The notes under the pieces are model-generated. The model worked only from the letters and a program-made list of their open reading frames with translations, made no database searches and was not told the DNA's origin. From Dysgonamonadaceae bacterium (GTDB taxonomy: Bacteria > Bacteroidota > Bacteroidia > Bacteroidales > Azobacteroidaceae): a DNA stretch of 37,576 nt. Made by a program: the position numbers and the translations under genes. The DNA lies in the NCBI GenBank assembly GCA_031272085.1, contig JAISUN010000067.1:1-37576 (forward strand). Reading direction: 5' to 3'. Positions 2,215-36,676 of the stretch are shown one piece after another; position 1 is the stretch's first letter, and every line of letters starts with the position of its first letter.

Positions 2215-3916
2215 ACGAATTGGAATAACAGGTTTTTTGCTGCTATGTACATTGGCTGTCAATGCGCAAAGTTTTAATATCGAAGACATTAAAAATATGT
2301 TCGGGAAAGGCAATCCTTTGAAACTGACAGGAGGTTTTTCTGCCAACTCAACATTTAATGCCGGAAGTGAAGACTTGGCACGCGACCCTTTTGTTTATTA
2401 CCTCAACGGCAATATCAACCTGAACATTTACGGCAATATCAATCTGCCGTTTTCGTTCAGCCTTACCAATTCAGGCACGAGTTACAAACTGCCGTCAAGC
2501 CCCAACCGGTTAAGCATACATCCATCGTATAAATGGATTACCGGACATATTGGCGACGTTTCTATGACTTTTTCTCCATATACGCTTAACGGGCATATTT
2601 TTACAGGCGCCGGAGTAGAACTGTCGCCCGACGGCTGGGAATTTGCCGCCATGTACGGACGATTGCTCAAAGCAGTAGAATACGACGAGGCACAACCCGC
2701 TTTTCTTCCGACCTATAAACGAATGGGATATGGATTTAAAGCCGGAAGACAGGCGGAAAAATACCGGATTTCAATTAATGTTTTCGATGCAAAAGACAAT
2801 GTTTCTTCTTTGATTACTCCGCCCGACAGCCTTGGGGTAACTCCAATGGAAAATCTTGCCGGAAGCGTTACATTCCTTTACAAACCTGCGCAATTTATCG
2901 AAATCAGCGGCGAATACGGATTAAGTTTGCTGACTTTGGATACCCGTTCGCTTGCAGAAAACAGGGACGGAATAATGGGAATGTGGAACGCAAGCAATAT
3001 GTCATCGACTTATTACAAGGCTTTCAAGGCGCAAATAAATTATGTGGGCGAAACCAACCGCTTTGGGATAGGATGCGAACGTATCGACCCCGGATATAAA
3101 ACCTTGGGCGCCTATTATTTTGCAAATGATTTGGAAAATATTACCCTGAATGCTTATCAGGCTTTTCTGCAAAACAAAATGAATATTAATTTAAGTCTGG
3201 GCTACGAACGCGACGATTTGGATAATGCCAAAGCAAGCGCATCGTCGCGAATAGTCGGCTCGGCAAATGTTACTGTTATGCCGAATGAGCGTATCAATGC
3301 AAACCTGTCGTATTCCAACTTTCAAACATATACTAATGTCCGCTCGAATTTTGAATTGATAAATCAGGAAAACCCTTTGGATAAACTTGACACACTGAAT
3401 TTTGTACAGTTAAGCCAGTCTGCAAATCTGAATGTAAATATAATTACGCGGAAAAACGAAGCGCAATCTCACAGCCTCAATATCAATCTGTCGTATCAGG
3501 ATGCGGCAAATAAACAGGGCGGAGTTTATCATATCGGAAGCGTTACCGAAATGATAAATGCAATGGCGGCTTACTCGTGGACTTTTCTTAAATCAGGCTT
3601 AACGCTGAACGGAGCAGTAAATCTTAACAACAGCAAAATCCTGAACGGAAACACATTAACCTGGGGTCCGACTTTGGGGGCATCAACCCGACTTCTCAAA
3701 AAGAAAATAAATCTTTCCGGTTCGCTTTCCTATAATGCAGGAAGTTTGGAAGGAGTTAAGCAAAACGAAGTATTTCTGTGTCGCATAAACAGTTCATATT
3801 CATTTCTCAAACGCCAAAGCCTTACACTTGCCTTCAACTATCAATGGCGGTCGGCATTTAATCGCCCCGGCGTCAATAATTCATTATTGACGCTCGGTTA
3901 TACTTGCAGTTTTTGA
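2207..3916 (+). CDS. Outer-membrane beta-barrel protein, function unknown
   Basis: The chosen start is the ATG at 2207, which gives a clean signal peptide (MIRRIGITGFLLLCTLAVNAQ) and overlaps the stop of the preceding lipoprotein by 8 bases. An upstream TTG at 2183 would place eight extra residues before the signal and is rejected. After the signal, the roughly 545 residues are dominated by alternating polar/aromatic strands (for example INLNIYGNINLPFSFSLTNSG, NLNVNIITRKN, SLNINLSYQ) and the chain ends in an aromatic residue (LGYTCSF), the usual outer-membrane barrel terminus. I see no TonB box or plug domain, so it is not a SusC-type receptor. With the PKD lipoprotein in front it may form a surface complex, which is inference from the overlapping genes. 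Confidence 0.7.
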   Translation: MIRRIGITGFLLLCTLAVNAQSFNIEDIKNMFGKGNPLKLTGGFSANSTFNAGSEDLARDPFVYYLNGNINLNIYGNINLPFSFSLTNSGTSYKLPSSPNRLSIHPSYKWITGHIGDVSMTFSPYTLNGHIFTGAGVELSPDGWEFAAMYGRLLKAVEYDEAQPAFLPTYKRMGYGFKAGRQAEKYRISINVFDAKDNVSSLITPPDSLGVTPMENLAGSVTFLYKPAQFIEISGEYGLSLLTLDTRSLAENRDGIMGMWNASNMSSTYYKAFKAQINYVGETNRFGIGCERIDPGYKTLGAYYFANDLENITLNAYQAFLQNKMNINLSLGYERDDLDNAKASASSRIVGSANVTVMPNERINANLSYSNFQTYTNVRSNFELINQENPLDKLDTLNFVQLSQSANLNVNIITRKNEAQSHSLNINLSYQDAANKQGGVYHIGSVTEMINAMAAYSWTFLKSGLTLNGAVNLNNSKILNGNTLTWGPTLGASTRLLKKKINLSGSLSYNAGSLEGVKQNEVFLCRINSSYSFLKRQSLTLAFNYQWRSAFNRPGVNNSLLTLGYTCSF

Positions 3917-4023
3917 GGTTTTACCTAATCCTAACATTTTTAACAGTTTCTATATTTTTACAAATTGATAATTTTTTTTTGTTTTTTTGTAACTTTTATA
4001 TAGAATTTACGTTGAAAAAGAAG

Positions 4024-4031
4024 TATCTTTG
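4024..4031 (+). promoter_or_regulatory. Possible upstream promoter -7 box (TATCTTTG)
   Basis: The octamer matches the Bacteroidetes -7 consensus TAnnTTTG exactly. No TTTG lies 19-21 bases upstream, so the -33 element is weak or absent. If active it would give the rimP operon a leader of more than 200 bases. Confidence 0.4.
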
Positions 4032-4183
4032 CAAAAAATTGAAATGAGTTATTTGTACAGCGTAAAATGCAGCAAATCATAGAATTGGTTTCGTTACTAA
4101 TTCATTACCGACAAAAAAATAATGCTGTATATCAGTTAATTTAGGTGGATTTTATTATTTTTATGAAGAAAATTGCCATAATA

Positions 4184-4215
4184 TTTGGATTTCATTAAAT
4201 AATGTATTACCTTTG
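4184..4215 (+). promoter_or_regulatory. Consensus promoter of the rimP-nusA-infB operon
   Basis: A TTTG at 4184-4187 and TACCTTTG at 4208-4215 are separated by 20 bases, the spacing expected for the Bacteroidetes major sigma factor. Transcription would start near 4220, about 45 bases before the rimP ATG. Confidence 0.75.
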
Positions 4216-4233
4216 CGGCAAAATAAGGTGGTG

Positions 4234-4257
4234 GGGGGCTTAAAGCCCTCTTTTTTC
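4234..4257 (+). terminator. Terminator-like hairpin in the rimP leader (possible attenuator)
   Basis: GGGGGCT (4234-4240) pairs with AGCCCTC (4244-4250), including one G-U pair, over a three-base loop, and six T residues follow at 4251-4256. It begins about 15 bases after the predicted transcription start and ends 8 bases before the rimP ATG, so it cannot serve the upstream gene alone. It resembles an intrinsic terminator placed to limit entry into the operon. Confidence 0.5.
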
Positions 4258-4264
4258 TTATATT

Positions 4265-4732
4265 ATGCTCGAAAAGTCATACATATCGAAAATTGCAGAC
4301 GATTTTCTGAACGGTTCGGAAAATTATTTGGTCAGCGTCGAGGTCAGCCCCGACAATGCCGTTGTCGTTACAATCGACAATGACAGAGGCGTTTCCATCG
4401 ACGACTGCATCGCGCTGAACCGCTTTATAGAATCGAAACTCGACCGCGACGCCGAAGATTACGAACTCGAAGTCGGCTCGGCCGGAATCAGCCAGCCCTT
4501 CAAAGTCCTGCGGCAATATCAAAAAAACGTGGGCAAAGAAGTGGAAGTCCTGACAGTGGCGGGCAAAAAACTGACCGGAACGCTGAAATCGGCCGACGAA
4601 AACGGTTTTGTGCTGACTGTCGAGAACAAAGTGAAGCCCGAAGGGGCAAAAAGAAAGGTTTTGGTCGAAGAAGACCTGGCTTTTCGCTACGACGAGATTA
4701 AAAAAACAAATTATTTAATAAGATTTAAATAA
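4265..4732 (+). CDS. rimP: Ribosome maturation factor RimP
   Basis: The 155-residue protein has the two-domain RimP layout: an N-terminal alpha/beta domain with the family segment VSIDDCIALNRFIESKLD followed by YELEVGSAGISQPFKVLRQYQKNVGKEVEV, then an Sm-like C-terminal beta-barrel. RimP binds the free 30S subunit and is needed for its maturation. It is the first gene of the conserved rimP-nusA-infB order, 9 bases before nusA, and lies just after the consensus promoter and leader hairpin. There is no strong Shine-Dalgarno sequence before the ATG, which is usual in this phylum. Length and order both agree with the family. Confidence 0.95.
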   Translation: MLEKSYISKIADDFLNGSENYLVSVEVSPDNAVVVTIDNDRGVSIDDCIALNRFIESKLDRDAEDYELEVGSAGISQPFKVLRQYQKNVGKEVEVLTVAGKKLTGTLKSADENGFVLTVENKVKPEGAKRKVLVEEDLAFRYDEIKKTNYLIRFK

Positions 4733-4741
4733 CAGAATAAT

Positions 4742-5995
4742 ATGGCAAGGAGAAAGCAGGAAGCAAATATGATTGAGACTTTTGCCGAGTTCAAGGAAAA
4801 CAAGAATATCGACAGGACAACGCTCATCAGCATCATCGAAGAATCGTTCAGAAACGTTATCAGCAAGATGTTTGGTTCCGACGAAAACTACGACATCATT
4901 ATCAACCCCGACAAGGGGGATTTCGAGATTTGGAGAAACCGCGAGGTTGTTCCCGATGCAGCGCTGAACAACACAAGCACCCAAATCAGTTTGACCGAAG
5001 CCCAGAAAATCGACCCCGATTACGAAGTGGGCGAACAGATAACCGACGAAGTGGATTTCGCCGGATTCGGCCGCCGCGCAGTGCTGAACTTGCGACAGGC
5101 GCTTGCCGCCAAAATCCTTGAACTCCAAAAGGACAATATTTACACCAAATATAAAGACCAGATAGGCCAAATCGTTTCAGGCGAAGTTTATCAGGTCTGG
5201 AAAAAAGAAGTCCTGCTGCTCGACGACGACGAAAACGAACTGATTTTGCCCAAGTCGGAGCAGATTCCGGGCGACTTTTTCAGGAAAAACGACACCCGCC
5301 GCGCTGTGGTTATTAAGGTTGACAATCAGAACAACAACCCCAAAATCGTAGTGTCGCGGACATCCAACCTCTTTATGCAGAGGCTGTTTGAATTGGAAGT
5401 GCCGGAAATCCACGACGGACTGATTACCATCAAGCGCATTGCCCGGATACCGGGAGAACGCGCCAAAGTCGCAGTAGAATCCTACGACGACCGCATCGAC
5501 CCCGTAGGAGCCTGCGTAGGTATGAAAGGAGCGCGTATTCACGGCATAGTAAGGGAGTTATGCAACGAAAACATCGACGTTATAAACTACACTTCCAACA
5601 CCGCCCTCTTTATACAAAGAGCATTAAGCCCGGCAAAAATTTCGTCCATCAAAATTCACGAAGACGAGAAACGCGCCGAGGTCTTCCTCCGTCCCGAAGA
5701 AGTATCGATGGCTATCGGTAAAAACGGGCTGAACATCAAACTCGCAGGTATGCTCACGGAATTTACCATCGACGTAATCCGCGACATCGACACCGGCGAA
5801 GACGACATCTACCTCGACGAATTCTCTGACGAAATAGAGATGTGGGTAATCGACCAGTTGAAGAGCATCGGTTGCACCACCGCCAAAAGCGTTTTGAGGA
5901 TGAACCGCGAAGAAATCATAGAAAAGGCCGATTTGGAAGAAAGTACGGTTGACGACGTATTGCGCATCATCCAGGCCGAATTTGAAGAAGAATAA
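4742..5995 (+). CDS. nusA: Transcription termination/antitermination factor NusA
   Basis: The 417-residue protein has the NusA order: an N-terminal RNA-polymerase-binding domain (about 1-130, with the segment ALNNTSTQISLTEAQKIDPD near its end), an S1 domain (about 135-205, GQIVSGEVYQVWKKEVLLL), and two KH domains (about 205-350) with the signatures RIARIPGERAKVAV, GVCVGMKGARI-like GACVGMKGARIHGI and SMAIGKNGLNIKLA. A short helical tail with one helix-hairpin-helix-like repeat (IDQLKSIGCTTAKSVLRM) replaces the two acidic repeats of the E. coli protein. It controls pausing, termination and antitermination. It lies between rimP and infB, 8 bases before infB. In enterobacteria NusA autoregulates this operon through leader termination; the hairpin before rimP makes a comparable loop possible here, by inference. 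Confidence 0.96.
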   Translation: MARRKQEANMIETFAEFKENKNIDRTTLISIIEESFRNVISKMFGSDENYDIIINPDKGDFEIWRNREVVPDAALNNTSTQISLTEAQKIDPDYEVGEQITDEVDFAGFGRRAVLNLRQALAAKILELQKDNIYTKYKDQIGQIVSGEVYQVWKKEVLLLDDDENELILPKSEQIPGDFFRKNDTRRAVVIKVDNQNNNPKIVVSRTSNLFMQRLFELEVPEIHDGLITIKRIARIPGERAKVAVESYDDRIDPVGACVGMKGARIHGIVRELCNENIDVINYTSNTALFIQRALSPAKISSIKIHEDEKRAEVFLRPEEVSMAIGKNGLNIKLAGMLTEFTIDVIRDIDTGEDDIYLDEFSDEIEMWVIDQLKSIGCTTAKSVLRMNREEIIEKADLEESTVDDVLRIIQAEFEEE

Positions 5996-31811: not shown

Positions 31812-33191
31812 TTATTGATTCACAAGCGATTTTGCAATATTAGTCCCCTGCAAAATCCGGTCGCCCATACTGATTCCGTTTTTCAGGTTTCCGCCAATAA
31901 CGAGACCTGAATAACGGTTTTGTAATTTTTCTACCGTTTCTAATCTTTCGCCGGTCGATTTTTCGTACTGCGGAATCGCATATTTGTGGCGGGCAATATG
32001 AATCATATCAGGCTCTTTGCCGGCGGAAAATTTCAACATATCGTGAAATTCGCGCAGGACGAGCGCGGTCAGTTCGCTGTCGGAAAGTTCGGTCAGATGT
32101 ATGGCTTTCATTCCGCCTATAAAGAACGAGAACAACATCCCATTTTCGGGAGCGCGTCCGGCAAAGCAAGCCGAAGGAAACAAGACGCCCAGCAAAGGCT
32201 TCTTTTCGCAGGACGGAATCAGGCCTCCGAAAGCGTTGAATCGCAGCCCCAAAATATCTTTTACGCCTACAACAACCTGAATTACAGGAGCATAGCGCAG
32301 ACAGGAAATTTTATCCATATCCGTTTTTTCCACAAAAGGCAGCATCTCGGGCAAAGCGTGGGAGCCGACGGTTGTTACGACATTTTTCGCGCGTATGCTC
32401 CGTTCGCCGTCGGCAAGACGGTAATCTATTTTCCAATTTTCGCCGTCGGGCGTAATTTTTAGCGAAGAAGCGGACAGAACGATATTTTCCCGTCCAATGG
32501 CGTCGGCCAGCGCCGAAGCGAGGTTTCCAAGCCCGCCTTTTACCGAAAAAACTTTTTTCGTAGCCAGCCGGTCCCGCTCTGTTTTAGGCTCTTTGGCTTT
32601 GGCAATCGAACCTTTTATGAAACTGCCGTAATTTTGCTCCAGATTATAGAGTTTCGGCAGAGCGTAACGGGTAACGAGCGAATAGGGGTCGCCTGCGTAA
32701 ATTCCTGATATAAATGGGTCAACAGCATAATCGACAAACGTTTTTCCGAGGCGACGCGATGCAAGTTCGCCCACCGATTCGTCGGGATTTGTCCCTTTTG
32801 CGCGGAAGGGTTCGCCCAGAATCCGGAACTTGTCAGGCCACGAAAATAGCGGAGTTGCGATTCCGCCAAACAGTCCCGAAGGCAGCGGGTAGAAGCGGTT
32901 TCCTTTCCAAATCCAGCGGTTGTTGGCGTTCTCGTCGGCCGTTTCCAATTCGCAGGCGGGCGAAAGCGCAGAAAACAGTTCGGCAACTTCGGGATGAGAG
33001 ACAGTTCCCGTATTGGGGCCGGTTTCAAAGACGAAGCCGTCGCGGTTCAGGGTTTGAATCTGTCCGCCGGTGCGGCCGCTTTTTTCTATAACCAAAACGG
33101 GTTTCCCGCTGCGTTTCAGGTTGTATGCGGTAGTCAGGCCGGTCAAACCTGCTCCGGCAACTACTGTTTCGATAAAATTATTTTCGTTCAT
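31812..33191 (-). CDS. hemG: HemG/HemY-type protoporphyrinogen (or coproporphyrinogen) oxidase
   Basis: The ATG at 33191 is chosen because it sets a normal N-terminus with the FAD-binding motif VVAGAGLTGLTTAYNL (GAGLTG at residues 13-18); the 36 residues in front of it in the longer frame do not fit the family and cover the promoter. The 459-residue protein has the PPOX pattern: an acidic dinucleotide-binding end (VLVIEKSGRTGGQIQT), the substrate domain with DYAVDPFISGIYAGDP, KVFSVKGGLGNLASALADAI, and the C-terminal FAD motif GLVIGGNLKNGISMGDRI. It oxidises protoporphyrinogen IX, or coproporphyrinogen III in the coproporphyrin-dependent route, in haem synthesis. The choice between the two cannot be made here. 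No other hem gene is adjacent. Confidence 0.92.
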   Translation of the reverse strand: MNENNFIETVVAGAGLTGLTTAYNLKRSGKPVLVIEKSGRTGGQIQTLNRDGFVFETGPNTGTVSHPEVAELFSALSPACELETADENANNRWIWKGNRFYPLPSGLFGGIATPLFSWPDKFRILGEPFRAKGTNPDESVGELASRRLGKTFVDYAVDPFISGIYAGDPYSLVTRYALPKLYNLEQNYGSFIKGSIAKAKEPKTERDRLATKKVFSVKGGLGNLASALADAIGRENIVLSASSLKITPDGENWKIDYRLADGERSIRAKNVVTTVGSHALPEMLPFVEKTDMDKISCLRYAPVIQVVVGVKDILGLRFNAFGGLIPSCEKKPLLGVLFPSACFAGRAPENGMLFSFFIGGMKAIHLTELSDSELTALVLREFHDMLKFSAGKEPDMIHIARHKYAIPQYEKSTGERLETVEKLQNRYSGLVIGGNLKNGISMGDRILQGTNIAKSLVNQ

Positions 33192-33333: not shown

Positions 33334-33365
33334 TTGTATTATTAGAAAAATAAATAATATCTTTG
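33334..33365 (+). promoter_or_regulatory. Plus-strand promoter reading into the inverted-repeat segment
   Basis: TTG (33334-33336) and TATCTTTG (33358-33365) are 21 bases apart. Transcription would begin inside or just before the left inverted repeat and now runs antisense to the AraC-type regulator. No plus-strand gene follows for 1.2 kb. If the segment between the two repeats were inverted, this promoter would read into the regulator gene in the sense direction. Confidence 0.5.
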
Positions 33366-33371
33366 TCCGGC

Positions 33372-33399
33372 TTGTTTGTCACTACACAAGTGACAAACA
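33372..33399 (+). repeat. Left copy of a 28-bp near-palindromic inverted repeat
   Basis: The element has arms TTGTTTGTCACT and AGTGACAAACA around the spacer ACACA. The exact reverse complement of all 28 bases occurs at 34575-34602. Here the palindrome extends to 17-bp arms (33367-33383 and 33389-33405). The orientation is set only by the 5-bp centre. The design resembles a site-specific recombination core site, but an operator or RNA hairpin is possible. Confidence 0.8.
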
Positions 33400-33440
33400 A
33401 GCCGGGAATAAAACCACAAAATCACTTTTCAATCTCGGCA

Positions 33441-33448
33441 CAAAGATA
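33441..33448 (-). promoter_or_regulatory. Minus-strand -7 box next to AraC-type direct repeats
   Basis: On the minus strand this reads TATCTTTG, an exact consensus. It lies inside the segment between the two inverted repeats and now points left, through the left repeat, to the hemG side. No TTTG is at the normal -33 distance; the direct repeats at 33469-33506 take that place, as in activator-dependent promoters. Confidence 0.5.
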
Positions 33449-33468
33449 AATGCGTTTTTTTGTTCTCT

Positions 33469-33506
33469 TTATGTCAATTTGCAAAAATATTATGTCAATT
33501 TGCAAA
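33469..33506 (-). promoter_or_regulatory. Two 17-bp direct repeats spaced like AraC half-sites
   Basis: TTATGTCAATTTGCAAA occurs exactly at 33469-33485 and again at 33490-33506, with a 4-base gap, so the copies are 21 bases apart (two helical turns). The araI1/araI2 sites of E. coli have the same geometry. The proximal copy sits about 21 bases upstream of the -7 box at 33441-33448. The gene next to them encodes an AraC-family protein, a natural candidate to bind them. Confidence 0.65.
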
Positions 33507-33539
33507 GATTATTTTTTAATTTTAGTGTGATTTGCCTGT

Positions 33540-34211
33540 TTATCCTCTTTTTCTGATATTATAAACTGTTTCCGAAAAATTATTTTTGGAAAACTTATAC
33601 AACTGTATCTCTGTTGCAAATCCTGCAAGTTCGGCTATATCCTTCACTGCTTTTTTTCCTTCCGTCAATTCGCGGTAGATAAGGCGTTTCCGCTCGTTGA
33701 GAATCCACGTCTTGGGCGGAAGGCCGAATATGCGGATAAAATTGTTGCGGAATGTTTCTCGATTCATATTCAGCAGATTTGCCAACTCTTTGACTGTAAA
33801 TACTTTATTGCGGTATTGCAGTACCCTGAATTTGAAATCGCTGTCGAGAAGCAGCCGGTTTGAATCGGGACGGCCGAGATGGATAAAAAACTGTGCGAGC
33901 ATATCGTGGGGAAAGCAGGGCGATATGAGCGAAATAAGTTCTGATACAGAGGCTTTTATGTAGATTTTGCACAGCAGTCCGCGGTCAATCAGTTTTAAAA
34001 AATTTGAAACGACATTACGCAGTAAATCGTTCATTTTTAGCGTTATAATCTTGTTGCGTTCACGATTTATGCGTTTTTCAAATATTTTATTCCTGACCTG
34101 TTTGCAGAATTCCATATCGCCGTCTATGTACAGGAGGAGCAGCAGGCTGTCTTTCAGAGAGTTAAAATAAAAATCGCTATGTTCGGGAATTATGAAAAAT
34201 TCTTCCGCCAT
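33540..34211 (-). CDS. AraC-family regulator, C-terminal part of a split gene
   Basis: The frame encodes 223 residues from an internal ATG. Residues 1-30 (AEEFFIIPEHSDFYFN) look like the end of a cupin-type sensor domain and not like a true N-terminus. The last 90 residues are an AraC DNA-binding domain: VFTVKELANLLNMNRETFRNNFIRIFG is the first helix-turn-helix, AVKDIAELAGFATEIQLYKFSKNNF the second. The missing N-terminus is in the overlapping frame at 34190-34414, which ends in SINGNKIKK, exactly what would precede. Joining both by a -1 shift at the A heptamer 34220-34214 gives a regulator of 291 residues, the normal length. Whether the shift happens by ribosomal or transcriptional slippage, or the gene is broken or misread, is unknown. 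It lies between the two inverted repeats and beside a FISUMP surface-protein gene. Confidence 0.75.
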   Translation of the reverse strand: MAEEFFIIPEHSDFYFNSLKDSLLLLLYIDGDMEFCKQVRNKIFEKRINRERNKIITLKMNDLLRNVVSNFLKLIDRGLLCKIYIKASVSELISLISPCFPHDMLAQFFIHLGRPDSNRLLLDSDFKFRVLQYRNKVFTVKELANLLNMNRETFRNNFIRIFGLPPKTWILNERKRLIYRELTEGKKAVKDIAELAGFATEIQLYKFSKNNFSETVYNIRKRG

Positions 34212-34414
34212 AATTTTTTTATTTTGTTGCCGTTTATCGAAATTTCAATCTCGCCCTCTGTCAGGAAAGCGAGTGCAATGCGTGTGGAACGACGGCTGGT
34301 ATGGCCGTTTTCACCGGTTTTAACAACCTCATAATAATCATCCGCCGTATTCATGCGGTTTGAGCAGTCCGACGGACAGTTACCGCATAATGAATACGTT
34401 TTCATCGAGTTCAT
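34190..34414 (-). CDS. AraC-family regulator, N-terminal part of a split gene
   Basis: The 74-residue frame starts at 34414 (or at Met 4, 34405). Its middle, RIALAFLTEGEIEISINGNKIKK, is the beta-rich cupin-like sensor start of Bacteroidetes AraC-type regulators. After residue 67 the frame leaves the family pattern and stops 7 codons later (LWRKNFS). The continuing sensor and DNA-binding domain are in the -1 frame at 33540-34211. The N-terminus carries a Cys cluster (SLCGNCPSDCSNR), which could bind a metal or respond to redox state, but this is a guess. It could act as a short separate product if no frameshift occurs. Confidence 0.6.
   Translation of the reverse strand: MNSMKTYSLCGNCPSDCSNRMNTADDYYEVVKTGENGHTSRRSTRIALAFLTEGEIEISINGNKIKKLWRKNFS
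34214..34220 (-). other. Slippery A AAA AAA heptamer at the AraC frame junction
   Basis: On the minus strand the zero-frame codons are ATA AAA AAA TTA, so the seven A residues form the A_AAA_AAA heptamer known from programmed -1 frameshifting. A -1 slip here continues as ATT ATG GCG in the frame of the downstream part. No strong downstream stem was recognised. Confidence 0.55.
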
Positions 34415-34452
34415 ACGCTAATTATTTTAAAAAAATATAAAAAATCCCCTTA

Positions 34453-34481
34453 CCCCTCAAATGCCGTTAAAATTTGAGGGG
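34453..34481. other. Perfect 10-bp hairpin in the AraC leader
   Basis: CCCCTCAAAT (34453-34462) and ATTTGAGGGG (34472-34481) are exact complements around a 9-base loop. On the minus strand, T-rich sequence follows about 9 bases later, so it may be an attenuator in front of the regulator. On the plus strand only TTT follows. It could also be a protein-binding dyad. Confidence 0.5.
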
Positions 34482-34510
34482 TTTGATGATTGAAAAGAAT
34501 CTTGTTCAGC

Positions 34511-34530
34511 GGCAAAAATTTGCCTTTTTT
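34511..34530 (+). terminator. Short palindrome with T6, weak terminator candidate
   Basis: GGCAAA (34511-34516) and TTTGCC (34519-34524) form a dyad and are followed by six T residues (34525-34530). The real loop would need at least 4 bases, so the stem is short. On the plus strand it would oppose transcription toward the FISUMP gene. Confidence 0.3.
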
Positions 34531-34574
34531 ACACGCAAAATTACGGTTAGCGTATTATAAAAAATTATCCCCGA

Positions 34575-34602
34575 TGTTTGTCACTTGTGTAGTGACAAAC
34601 AA
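34575..34602 (-). repeat. Right copy of the 28-bp near-palindromic inverted repeat
   Basis: On the plus strand the arms are TGTTTGTCACT and AGTGACAAACAA around the spacer TGTGT, the exact reverse complement of 33372-33399. The inner flanks of both copies are also alike (a GGGA/GGGGATAA-like stretch). It lies 31 bases before the start codon of the FISUMP gene, inside its presumed leader. Confidence 0.8.
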
Positions 34603-34633: not shown

Positions 34634-36676
34634 ATGAAACGAACAAATTTTTTGGTAATCGCGCTCATCGCTTTGGGTGCGGTAAACGGCGCAAAAGCGC
34701 AGGTAACAATCGGCGACAACGCAGCCCCGACAGTAACGCTCGAAGTTAAGGGGAAACCCGCAGAAACGGCAAAGGCCGACGGAATAATTATCCCCAAACT
34801 GACGGGCAATCAGTTGAAAGCAAAATGGGATGCAGGCTCGTATCCCCAAAACTTGGACGCCAACAAATCGGAAGGCATATTGGTTTACATAACCGCAGCC
34901 TGCTCGCCTCCGGCGGCAGCAAGCACCCCCTTTGAATATGTAACCGCCCCGGGATTCTATTTTTTCTCATTAGACGGCAACGCTTGGAAACCGCTCGTCA
35001 GTGGCGGCGAAACGCACGAGGCGGCGCCTTACGCTGAACCGTGGAACATAGCAGGTACGACAAATCCCGCAACAAGCAATACGCAAAGCATCTACCAGTC
35101 GGCAAGCGTGGGAATCGGCTCCTCGCGTCCGGCTGCGTCGCTTGACATATCGGCGGCGGCAAATGATACTGCCGGCCTTCTCGTTCCACGTCTGACGCTG
35201 GCGGAACTCAACGCCCGCAAGCAGTTCTATACCACAAGGCAAAAAGGCGCTCTGGTTTACATTACCGACGCAAGCGTATCGCCCGTTACAGGATATTCCG
35301 ACCAGATTTCATGCACAGGTTTTGTTTACTGGGACGGCTACAAATGGATTAGCGACTGCGGAGTTGAGGCAACCTGGATTAGGGCGGCCGTACAACCCAA
35401 GGCGTTTACTTTTTATGAAACAGGCCTTGAATCGGAAGTCCCGCTTACTTTTGCCGTATCTACCAACGGTACAAACCTGAAATATACATGGTATAAAGTT
35501 ACGGGAAGCAACATACACGTCCGCATCGGCGTAAAATGTACCGATTCCGACGGCAGCGGATACAATACAGCCTCTTTTACGCCCAACGTAACGAAAGGTA
35601 CGACAATAGACGCCGCCAATACAGGGTTCTACAAGTTCTATTGCGTTGCCAAAGTTGATGAACTGTCCAACGACAGCATTGTCAGCAATATTGCCGAAGT
35701 TGCCGTCGGCTGCGGAGCCAAAAATCTGCAAGGCGAATGGCTGTCTTTTCTTTGTTTTAATCTTGGAGCACGCACTCTTACTATTGCCGACCAGATGAAT
35801 TATTCGATTACGCCGGTAAACACCTCTGTCGGTTATCATTATTATGTTGCTAACGAAGAATATCTTTACGGAGACTTGTATCAATGGGGACGTATCGGCG
35901 ACGGGCATGAAAAACGAGTAGGTACGCCCGGAGAAATAACTCCTCCTTCAAATCGAGCGCCTTTTACTGGCATTACATCTACTTGCTACGAATATGGCAA
36001 TCTGATAGGCACAAACATAACAACCCATTTTCCTTTTTATCAAATACGTAGGGATTCAACTACATGGTATGGCAAATTTATTTATTCTGCCACCACTTTA
36101 AACTGGGCAGATTCTGTTCCAACAATGTATAGGGACGGCTTATGGGTAACAAACAGGAGTGCAACTAATGACCCCTGCACCAAGATAAAATCTACTTACA
36201 CAGGGGAAGACCCTTTTACGCCCGCAAACGTAGGAATCGTTGGAGCGCAAACTAACGATTGGTTTTCGTGGTATCCTGTTGCGCAAGATGCGGATGCCGC
36301 CGGTGACGGTTCAGGCAATACCGGTTGGAGGTTACCGGCACAGGACGAATGGGCATCGCTCTATCGCGGAGGATACACGTCAGGCAATCCTTCCATTGCC
36401 ATCGCAAATACATGGGTATGGAACAGCAGTAATGGTAACGGTTACGAAATTCGTCCTGACAACATTACTACCACTCTATTTTTGCCGGCAGCCGGTCATC
36501 GAGATACAGGAAGCGCCGGAGCATTATTTAATCAGGGGAAAAATGCCCTCTATTGGAGTTCTTCTGTTGTAAGTAATTCTACTGCTTACCGTTTGAACTT
36601 AAATAGTGGTTTAGTAAATCCAGCACAAGGTACTTCTCGTTCAACCGGTATGTCAGTACGCTGTATAAAAAATTAA
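34634..36676 (+). CDS. Secreted FISUMP-domain protein
   Basis: The 680-residue protein has a signal peptide (MKRTNFLVIALIALGAVNGAKAQ). The N-terminal 230 residues contain two related segments: KADGIIIPKLTGNQLKAKWD with EGILVYITAAC, and TAGLLVPRLTLAELNARKQ with KGALVYITDAS, as in Bacteroidetes surface proteins. An Ig-like part lies at about 255-360. From about 365 to the end it is a FISUMP (Fibrobacter succinogenes major paralogous) domain: GEWLSFLCFNLGA, DLYQWGRIGDGH, GWRLPAQDEWASL, NALYWSSS and the end TGMSVRCIKN. Codons in the last third use more A/T in third positions than the first part, which suggests a mosaic gene. I found no consensus promoter in the 220 bases before it; see the inverted repeats at 33372 and 34575. 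Confidence 0.88.
   Translation: MKRTNFLVIALIALGAVNGAKAQVTIGDNAAPTVTLEVKGKPAETAKADGIIIPKLTGNQLKAKWDAGSYPQNLDANKSEGILVYITAACSPPAAASTPFEYVTAPGFYFFSLDGNAWKPLVSGGETHEAAPYAEPWNIAGTTNPATSNTQSIYQSASVGIGSSRPAASLDISAAANDTAGLLVPRLTLAELNARKQFYTTRQKGALVYITDASVSPVTGYSDQISCTGFVYWDGYKWISDCGVEATWIRAAVQPKAFTFYETGLESEVPLTFAVSTNGTNLKYTWYKVTGSNIHVRIGVKCTDSDGSGYNTASFTPNVTKGTTIDAANTGFYKFYCVAKVDELSNDSIVSNIAEVAVGCGAKNLQGEWLSFLCFNLGARTLTIADQMNYSITPVNTSVGYHYYVANEEYLYGDLYQWGRIGDGHEKRVGTPGEITPPSNRAPFTGITSTCYEYGNLIGTNITTHFPFYQIRRDSTTWYGKFIYSATTLNWADSVPTMYRDGLWVTNRSATNDPCTKIKSTYTGEDPFTPANVGIVGAQTNDWFSWYPVAQDADAAGDGSGNTGWRLPAQDEWASLYRGGYTSGNPSIAIANTWVWNSSNGNGYEIRPDNITTTLFLPAAGHRDTGSAGALFNQGKNALYWSSSVVSNSTAYRLNLNSGLVNPAQGTSRSTGMSVRCIKN
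36551..36676 (+). other. C-terminal segment resembling a hypervariable lectin-fold end
   Basis: The segment YWSSS to VRCIKN has the layout of variable C-type-lectin-fold ends, where Asn-rich template codons are diversified. Codons such as GTT, AGT, TCT, ACT, CGT and GGT could all come from AAT by changes at A positions only. No reverse transcriptase or template repeat is in the window, so this is only a resemblance. Confidence 0.2.

Follow-up and report, generated by a model that had tools for sequence, protein, structure and literature searches.

A probably invertible activator-promoter segment, now OFF, beside a FISUMP-type surface-protein gene

The segment at positions 33372-34602 of the window very probably belongs, in its OFF state, to a family of invertible activator-promoter segments that occurs in at least five genera. 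The window is the whole stretch of 37,576 nucleotides analysed here, namely the complete contig C33 of a 2.63-Mb assembly (139 contigs, 82% complete). In it, inverted dyad sites bracket a promoter upstream of a surface-type gene. The sequence-only reading had proposed an inversion switch that carries its own regulator. For the family this stands, with linked recombinases, sites with paired centres, a two-promoter geometry and a homologous segment lying reversed all seen directly in the DNA; for the window copy itself, inversion is what we infer from its relatives. Relatives have the same kind of segment in both directions, which gives it the look of a reversible on/off switch.

Bacteroidales are well known for their invertible promoters, and a flip of the present segment would move a whole control module, made up of an activator gene, its presumed operator and a promoter. 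In the OFF state, no sense promoter is recognised for either the activator or the target (for the window regulator there is one weak candidate) and the outer promoter is antisense, while in the predicted ON state both are connected. Such a DNA-gated feed-forward switch would still respond to a signal once ON, so that a single 1.2-kb unit would unite sensing with switching by chance. One relative, genome G438, has ON and OFF paralogues together.

The segment in the window

The two sites lie at 33372-33399 on the plus strand and at 34575-34602 on the minus strand, the right one being the exact reverse complement of the left, with 1175 nt separating the arms. This is in agreement with the 28-bp pair around about 1.2 kb reported in the sequence-only reading: all 28 of 28 positions are complementary, and no other perfect inverted pair within 5 kb is as long anywhere in the window, with maxima of 13-15 bp in 20 dinucleotide shuffles. 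The next longest are the self-palindrome of the left site (17 bp) and then pairs of 13 bp. The core of the sites is TTTGTCACT-NNNNN-AGTGACAAA, at 33375-33397 with centre ACACA on the left and at 34577-34599 with centre TGTGT on the right. The palindrome of the left copy is larger, with 17-bp arms spanning 33367-33405.

Between the sites lies an AraC-type regulator on the minus strand, which the sequence-only reading took as one gene. Here that reading has to be revised, since two overlapping open reading frames in different frames are found: a 223-aa one at 33540-34211 with the C-terminal part, identified as HTH_18 at 41.4 bits (Pfam cut-off 33.6), and a 74-aa one at 34190-34414 with the N-terminal part. 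HTH_18 is also found in the regulators of contigs C57, C119, C30 and C27 of the same genome and of the relatives G037 and G018; those of C57, C119 and C30 are intact, with 293-296 aa. The frameshift (34190-34220) falls beside a homopolymer run and could reflect decay, a sequencing error or a slippage switch.

Two promoters define the layout. The outward promoter of the segment, Pin, has its -7 box TATCTTTG at 33441-33448 on the minus strand and points away from the FISUMP gene, which is the OFF arrangement; this is the same box, in the same direction, as noticed before. Upstream of it, two 21-bp direct repeats at 33469-33510 on the minus strand (TTTGCAAATTGACATA twice) agree at 16 of 16 positions at lag 21, and they are the presumed operator of the AraC-type activator. 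AraC half-sites are spaced by 21 bp, and the regulator probably binds these repeats beside Pin. The second promoter, Pout, with its -7 box TATCTTTG at 33358-33365 on the plus strand, lies outside the left site and reads into the segment. A weaker box, TAATTTTG, inside the right end and upstream of the regulator start, could serve as the regulator promoter in the present orientation.

The presumed target, at 34634-36676 on the plus strand, is a FISUMP-type secreted or surface protein gene, whose scores fall just under the curated cut-offs (Fib_succ_major in Pfam, 31 bits against 33.9; TIGR02145, 38.8 against 41.65). When the inversion is computed, the Pin box moves to 34526-34533, in front of the FISUMP ATG at 34634, and the regulator ATG to 33560, downstream of the outer plus-strand box. 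Both predictions of the sequence-only reading are reproduced in this way, i.e. that inversion would bring Pin about 100 bases before the FISUMP ATG and would put the outer promoter before the regulator, which Pout would then drive. The left flank is a protoporphyrinogen oxidase gene of the hemG type (31812-33191, minus strand), outside the switch, and it occupies the place of the recombinase in the sister loci. An Rfam scan of the region gave 8 matches, all far below gathering scores and five of them to microRNA families.

Sister loci, recombinases and exchange in the same genome

We searched the genome for the pattern of the arms, with a free centre and up to 3 mismatches. The results show 15 forward matches against 5 with a reversed control pattern, and 12 of the 15 form six pairs with the core arms, 2 of these 12 sites having one mismatch. 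The centres are of five different kinds, namely ACACA in C33, ACGTA in C30 and C81, ATATA in C57, ATGCA in C119 and ACATA in C80. Within each of the six pairs one centre is the exact reverse complement of the other, though the pattern left the centres free; counted by hand, only 2 of 720 reassignments of right sites to left sites match everywhere. Such pairing is the expected trace of a recombinase that would need matching crossover sequences, or of repeated inversion at each locus. In addition, C48 has a seventh, diverged pair and C40 a single site. With at most one mismatch the pattern occurs in just 1 of the 97 genomes searched, the window's own.

The sequence-only reading found no recombinase in the window, and a genome search with a recombinase alignment (E<=0.001) likewise gives no match on C33; yet recombinase genes adjoin the sister segments. 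In C57, C30 and C119 a tyrosine recombinase gene (PF00589 and PF13102 above cut-off) stands directly outside one site, and C27 has a more diverged recombinase, a site pair and a regulator in the same order. A recombinase gene linked to similar repeats, of the kind for which a search had been suggested, is present beside the C57, C30, C119 and C27 sites, and in other species too. In an alignment of 10 recombinases, H280, R283, H306, Y315 and K206 are invariant, which we take to be the catalytic residues of tyrosine recombinases. The box-I arginine is presumably absent from its usual place, where nine have AQGM or ARGM and the tenth GQGI. The recombinases of G008 and of the segments in this genome have AQGM, related ones ARGM and that of contig C24 of G399 GQGI. 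A second recombinase copy lies on C111 (L083, 3969-4775), its DNA being 97% identical to the C27 recombinase locus over 576 bp; it is shorter and near the contig end, and no site pair was found there.

Lacking a recombinase of its own and carrying a frameshifted regulator, the window segment would have to rely on what the sister loci produce. It is accordingly best regarded as probably non-autonomous, with a recombinase that would act in trans. Another regulator could presumably replace the frameshifted one, and a regulator of the C57 type, with similar repeats, might do so in trans.

The catalogue described below has seven segments from this genome, every one of them OFF. Two of them, C80 and C81, are small segments with inner lengths of 216 and 227 bp and no regulator; each matches that portion of the window segment in which Pin and the regulator end lie, C80 also at the protein level. 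At C12, C24 and contig C11 of G008, where no site pair was found, a regulator lies upstream of, and codirectional with, a secreted-protein gene, an arrangement that the window would acquire by inversion. The start of these secreted proteins resembles that of the window FISUMP protein by eye, and they have no Pfam domain.

Comparison of sister loci also bears on exchange of segments. Between C57 and C30, identity is 87-89% in the left flank including the recombinase, and in the right flank 81% over the first 95 bp and 86-87% over 530 bp, against about 54% between the sites, where 35-44% was obtained with one shuffled alignment; followed in steps of 60 bases, identity changes at the sites. Inside the sites C57 is nearer to the window segment (66%), with the reverse in 0 of 5000 bootstraps, and for the non-coding ends alone C57 is nearer to C30 than to the window in 0.24% of bootstraps. 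In the flanks, C57 is nearer to C30 in 99.94-100% of bootstraps. The window flanks are non-homologous beyond about 100 bp, with hemG on the left and a 183-aa gene missing on the right, and it is therefore on the 109 columns left of the site that the flank test is meaningful. Besides, contigs C119 and C40 have the same first 119 bp (L010 and L014, 1-119), ending at the last base of the site core, past which C119 goes on into a regulator segment and C40 into a catalase gene. This is suggestive of an assembly branch, with alternative joins at a recombination site; it is only suggestive because the common predecessor contig is outside the bin.

From these comparisons, segments look to have been exchanged between loci at the sites. 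It is possible, and we put it forward tentatively, that the sites delimit exchangeable modules, each an activator with its operator-promoter, which are swapped between surface-gene loci via the same sites. If so, flipping would give ON and OFF within a lineage, while swapping would re-wire which activator, and hence which signal, controls a given surface protein. The C57/C30 identity break suggests such module exchange; regulatory evolution would then draw on site-specific recombination.

Relatives, the catalogue and both orientations

Regulator-bearing segments with dyad sites are found in G037 and G018, of the window's genus, in G247, G349, G176 and G399, and further in G438, G433 and G437, of the genus of G349, making at least five genera with the window's. 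We take the order that holds these five to be Bacteroidales. In the order-wide searches no more than 6 or 4 candidates were scored for each genome, and the counts from them are accordingly lower bounds. The recombinase is the next main gene in all these loci except G176, where two genes intervene. Further genomes have promoter-only segments next to related recombinases, and in some of these (G008, G399 and G439) the sites are of the same kind.

In all, 34 loci, 16 with a regulator and 18 without, were scored by one script, in which Pin is a box within 60 bp of the site that points out of the segment. Pin is at the predicted place in 32 of the 34 loci (29 OFF and 3 ON), two being unscorable. 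As controls, the box occurs opposite the same stretches in 1/34 and 1/34, on the opposite strand outside the recombinase-side site in 0/34, and reading in from the target side in 0/34; the box TAATTTTG is the window's single control-strand match. The direction of the regulator agrees with the Pin state in all 15 scorable regulator-bearing loci. Pout is present in 12 of 16 regulator-bearing segments, being missing in the other 4, against 4 of 18 promoter-only ones (Fisher p=0.005); in the first 25 loci the proportions were 9/11 and 2/14 (p=0.0012).

Lag-21 repeats (p<=0.01) are found in 7 of 16 regulator-bearing segments against 2 of 18 others, those two being C80 and C81. Of the 15 regulator-bearing loci where Pin could be scored, 8 have no significant lag-21 repeats (C119 with p=0.018, G037 with p=0.05, G349, G176, G438 C185, G438 C189, G433 and G437), which shows that the repeats are not universal in the anatomy; in G037 the best repeat is at lag 18. 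The repeat sequence varies with the regulator, that of C33, C57 and C119 being set apart from those of C30, C27, G018, G247 and G438 C110.

The main evidence for both orientations comes from G438. Between its paralogous loci on C110 (L298) and C185 (L299), recombinase and target align on the plus strand with the segment reversed, positions 3666-4699 of L298 aligning to 3785-2752 of L299 on the minus strand (1045 bp, 69%, E 2e-111). A reversed segment in related genomes, for which a look had been recommended, is thus seen between these two paralogues. The reversed alignment ends at the Pin-side site; its other end, close to where the regulator starts, leaves about 250 bp of diverged non-coding DNA up to the second site. 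On C185 the regulator faces away from the target, with Pin on the recombinase side, i.e. OFF. On C110 the order is Pout, the regulator in sense, the repeats (GCGGAAACGGATA twice at lag 21), Pin, the site and the target, with Pin 30 bp inside the target-side site and the regulator codirectional with the target. This layout is the predicted ON state. The comparison is one between paralogues about 70% alike, not strains, and concerns one regulator-bearing pair. The promoter-only loci of G104 and G439 are also ON, and the G439 target is a FISUMP protein above cut-off.

With 29 loci OFF and 3 ON, inversion may be rare. The excess may reflect either such rarity or dominance of the OFF state, as for one B. 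fragilis promoter.

Several loci stand outside the catalogue. They are C48, whose pair is at the recombinase 5' end with the target side undefined, L261 (a multi-site array), L306 and L307 (no recombinase beside), L100, and fetched loci without a site pair. One survey of 20 loci gave 10 with a pair near a recombinase, 9 of which were used; another of 40 loci gave 4 with a bracketing pair and a recombinase, and in L183 the recombinase is at the edge, with no pair. A contig scan with three recombinases gave a single distant named relative, Paraprevotella clara (L100), with an inverted pair of promoter size. No relative was confirmed by a scan of viral contigs with the regulators, and a DNA search of the genus of G247 (5 genomes) gave only short partial matches outside G247. 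The gene next to L252 was considered as a capsule regulator and rejected, Pfam giving a weak sigma-factor match. G438 has many segments in one genome (L298-L308), including ON, OFF and promoter-only copies, and its L306 and L307 have sites without a nearby recombinase. In contig C24 of G399 (L191), a 39-bp perfect inverted pair surrounds a regulator in the ON direction; this locus is unscorable, with no Pin box found within 60 bp, and its far flank is a ribosomal-protein operon by eye.

Proposed mechanism, alternatives and known systems

Family membership and layout lead us to propose the following mechanism. A tyrosine recombinase, encoded beside the segment in the sister loci and acting in trans here, would recombine the two dyad sites, whose 5-nt centres would have to match. 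In the OFF state seen in the window, Pin would fire away from the FISUMP gene and Pout would run antisense to the regulator. After inversion, Pout would transcribe the AraC-type activator, and the activator would bind the 21-bp direct repeats, whereupon Pin would fire through the right site into the FISUMP gene. A single flip would in this manner connect the activator and the promoter on which it acts.

It is also conceivable, though unlikely, that the window copy has decayed, i.e. that this family member is a formerly invertible activator segment now locked OFF. Such decay would fit the lack of a recombinase-alignment match on C33, the regulator split into two frames with its sister copies intact, and the OFF state of all seven catalogued copies of the genome. 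Yet both sites are exact to the last base, with a centre unique to C33 in the genome, and Pin, the repeats (16/16) and Pout are intact. Besides, the arms equal those of recombinase-bearing loci, and a Bacteroides tyrosine recombinase is known, from the main text of PMC4747536, to invert a distant promoter in trans.

Two further explanations dispense with inversion altogether, and we consider both far less probable. The dyads might be operators or RNA hairpins such as kissing loops, fixed in orientation and without recombination, as each copy is near-palindromic and the complementary centres would also allow loop-loop pairing. This is very improbable, because it would leave without account the reversed homologous segment in a block ending at the Pin-side site, the recombinase genes that adjoin such dyads in several species, and the drop between C57 and C30 from 81-89% in the flanks to about 54% between the sites, and because the Rfam matches are all so far below gathering scores. 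Equally improbable is a small transposon or MITE, whose terminal inverted repeats would be moved by a transposase instead of inverted. Several copies per genome with inverted ends would be in keeping with it, but no direct target duplication is seen by eye outside the ends, the ends are themselves palindromic dyads with a paired centre, a promoter reads in from outside the same end at 16 of the 34 catalogued loci, and the linked enzyme is a tyrosine recombinase. Overall, the evidence argues for an invertible segment now in the OFF state.

Among known systems, the Hin/H2 flagellar switch of Salmonella likewise has a gene carried inside the invertible segment together with a promoter, and its repressor lies downstream, outside the segment. 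The gene inside is there the recombinase (PMC5903667), while here it is an activator-type regulator which would itself be switched by the flip. The Mpi switches of the B. fragilis capsule loci resemble what is proposed here in having many segments per genome, a shared enzyme and surface genes turned ON or OFF. Mpi is a serine invertase, unlike the tyrosine recombinase (PF00589) linked here; a serine-invertase reading was rejected for the present segments, the linked enzymes being PF00589 tyrosine recombinases. To our knowledge, the fim/ipuS-type segments of E. coli have no regulator gene inside, which differs from the situation here. They share with the present family a tyrosine recombinase, short inverted repeats and a promoter inside (PMC6083910).

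A close likeness in kind of enzyme and promoter is with the B. fragilis tyrosine recombinase BF2766/Tsr19, which, as given in the main text of PMC4747536, inverts a local and a distant promoter (IVp-I and IVp-II), the local one being mostly OFF, with the -7 box TAnnTTTG. Both have a local tyrosine recombinase (here in the sister loci), inverted repeats, TAnnTTTG promoters and control of surface structures, presumed in the present case, and the use there of one recombinase for a local and a distant segment, with local OFF usually dominant, is comparable to what is proposed for the present family. They differ in that the invertible part described in that text is a promoter region, while here it is about 1.2 kb with an AraC-type regulator and a presumed operator, and an outer promoter waits outside the segment (PMC4747536).

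As to earlier descriptions, none of the open-access titles and abstract beginnings searched describes an invertible segment with its own activator and operator; the subscription literature lay mostly outside this search, and an earlier description may exist there. The word AraC is absent from the main text of PMC4747536, and an AraC regulator from the main texts of the related papers searched by term. In the main text of PMC8375218, the single 'arac' is part of a repeat sequence, the ARACGTTCGTN repeats quoted for Mpi, from which the site arms here differ.

A further observation concerns the diverged C48 pair (L080, i.e. C48:11000-20000 of this genome). This locus has a recombinase with a small site pair at its own 5' end (3435-4418 and 4636-4950), and by eye a promoter-like box inside the pair faces the recombinase itself. 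The C48 recombinase may accordingly be phase-variable, and it is a possible master switch.
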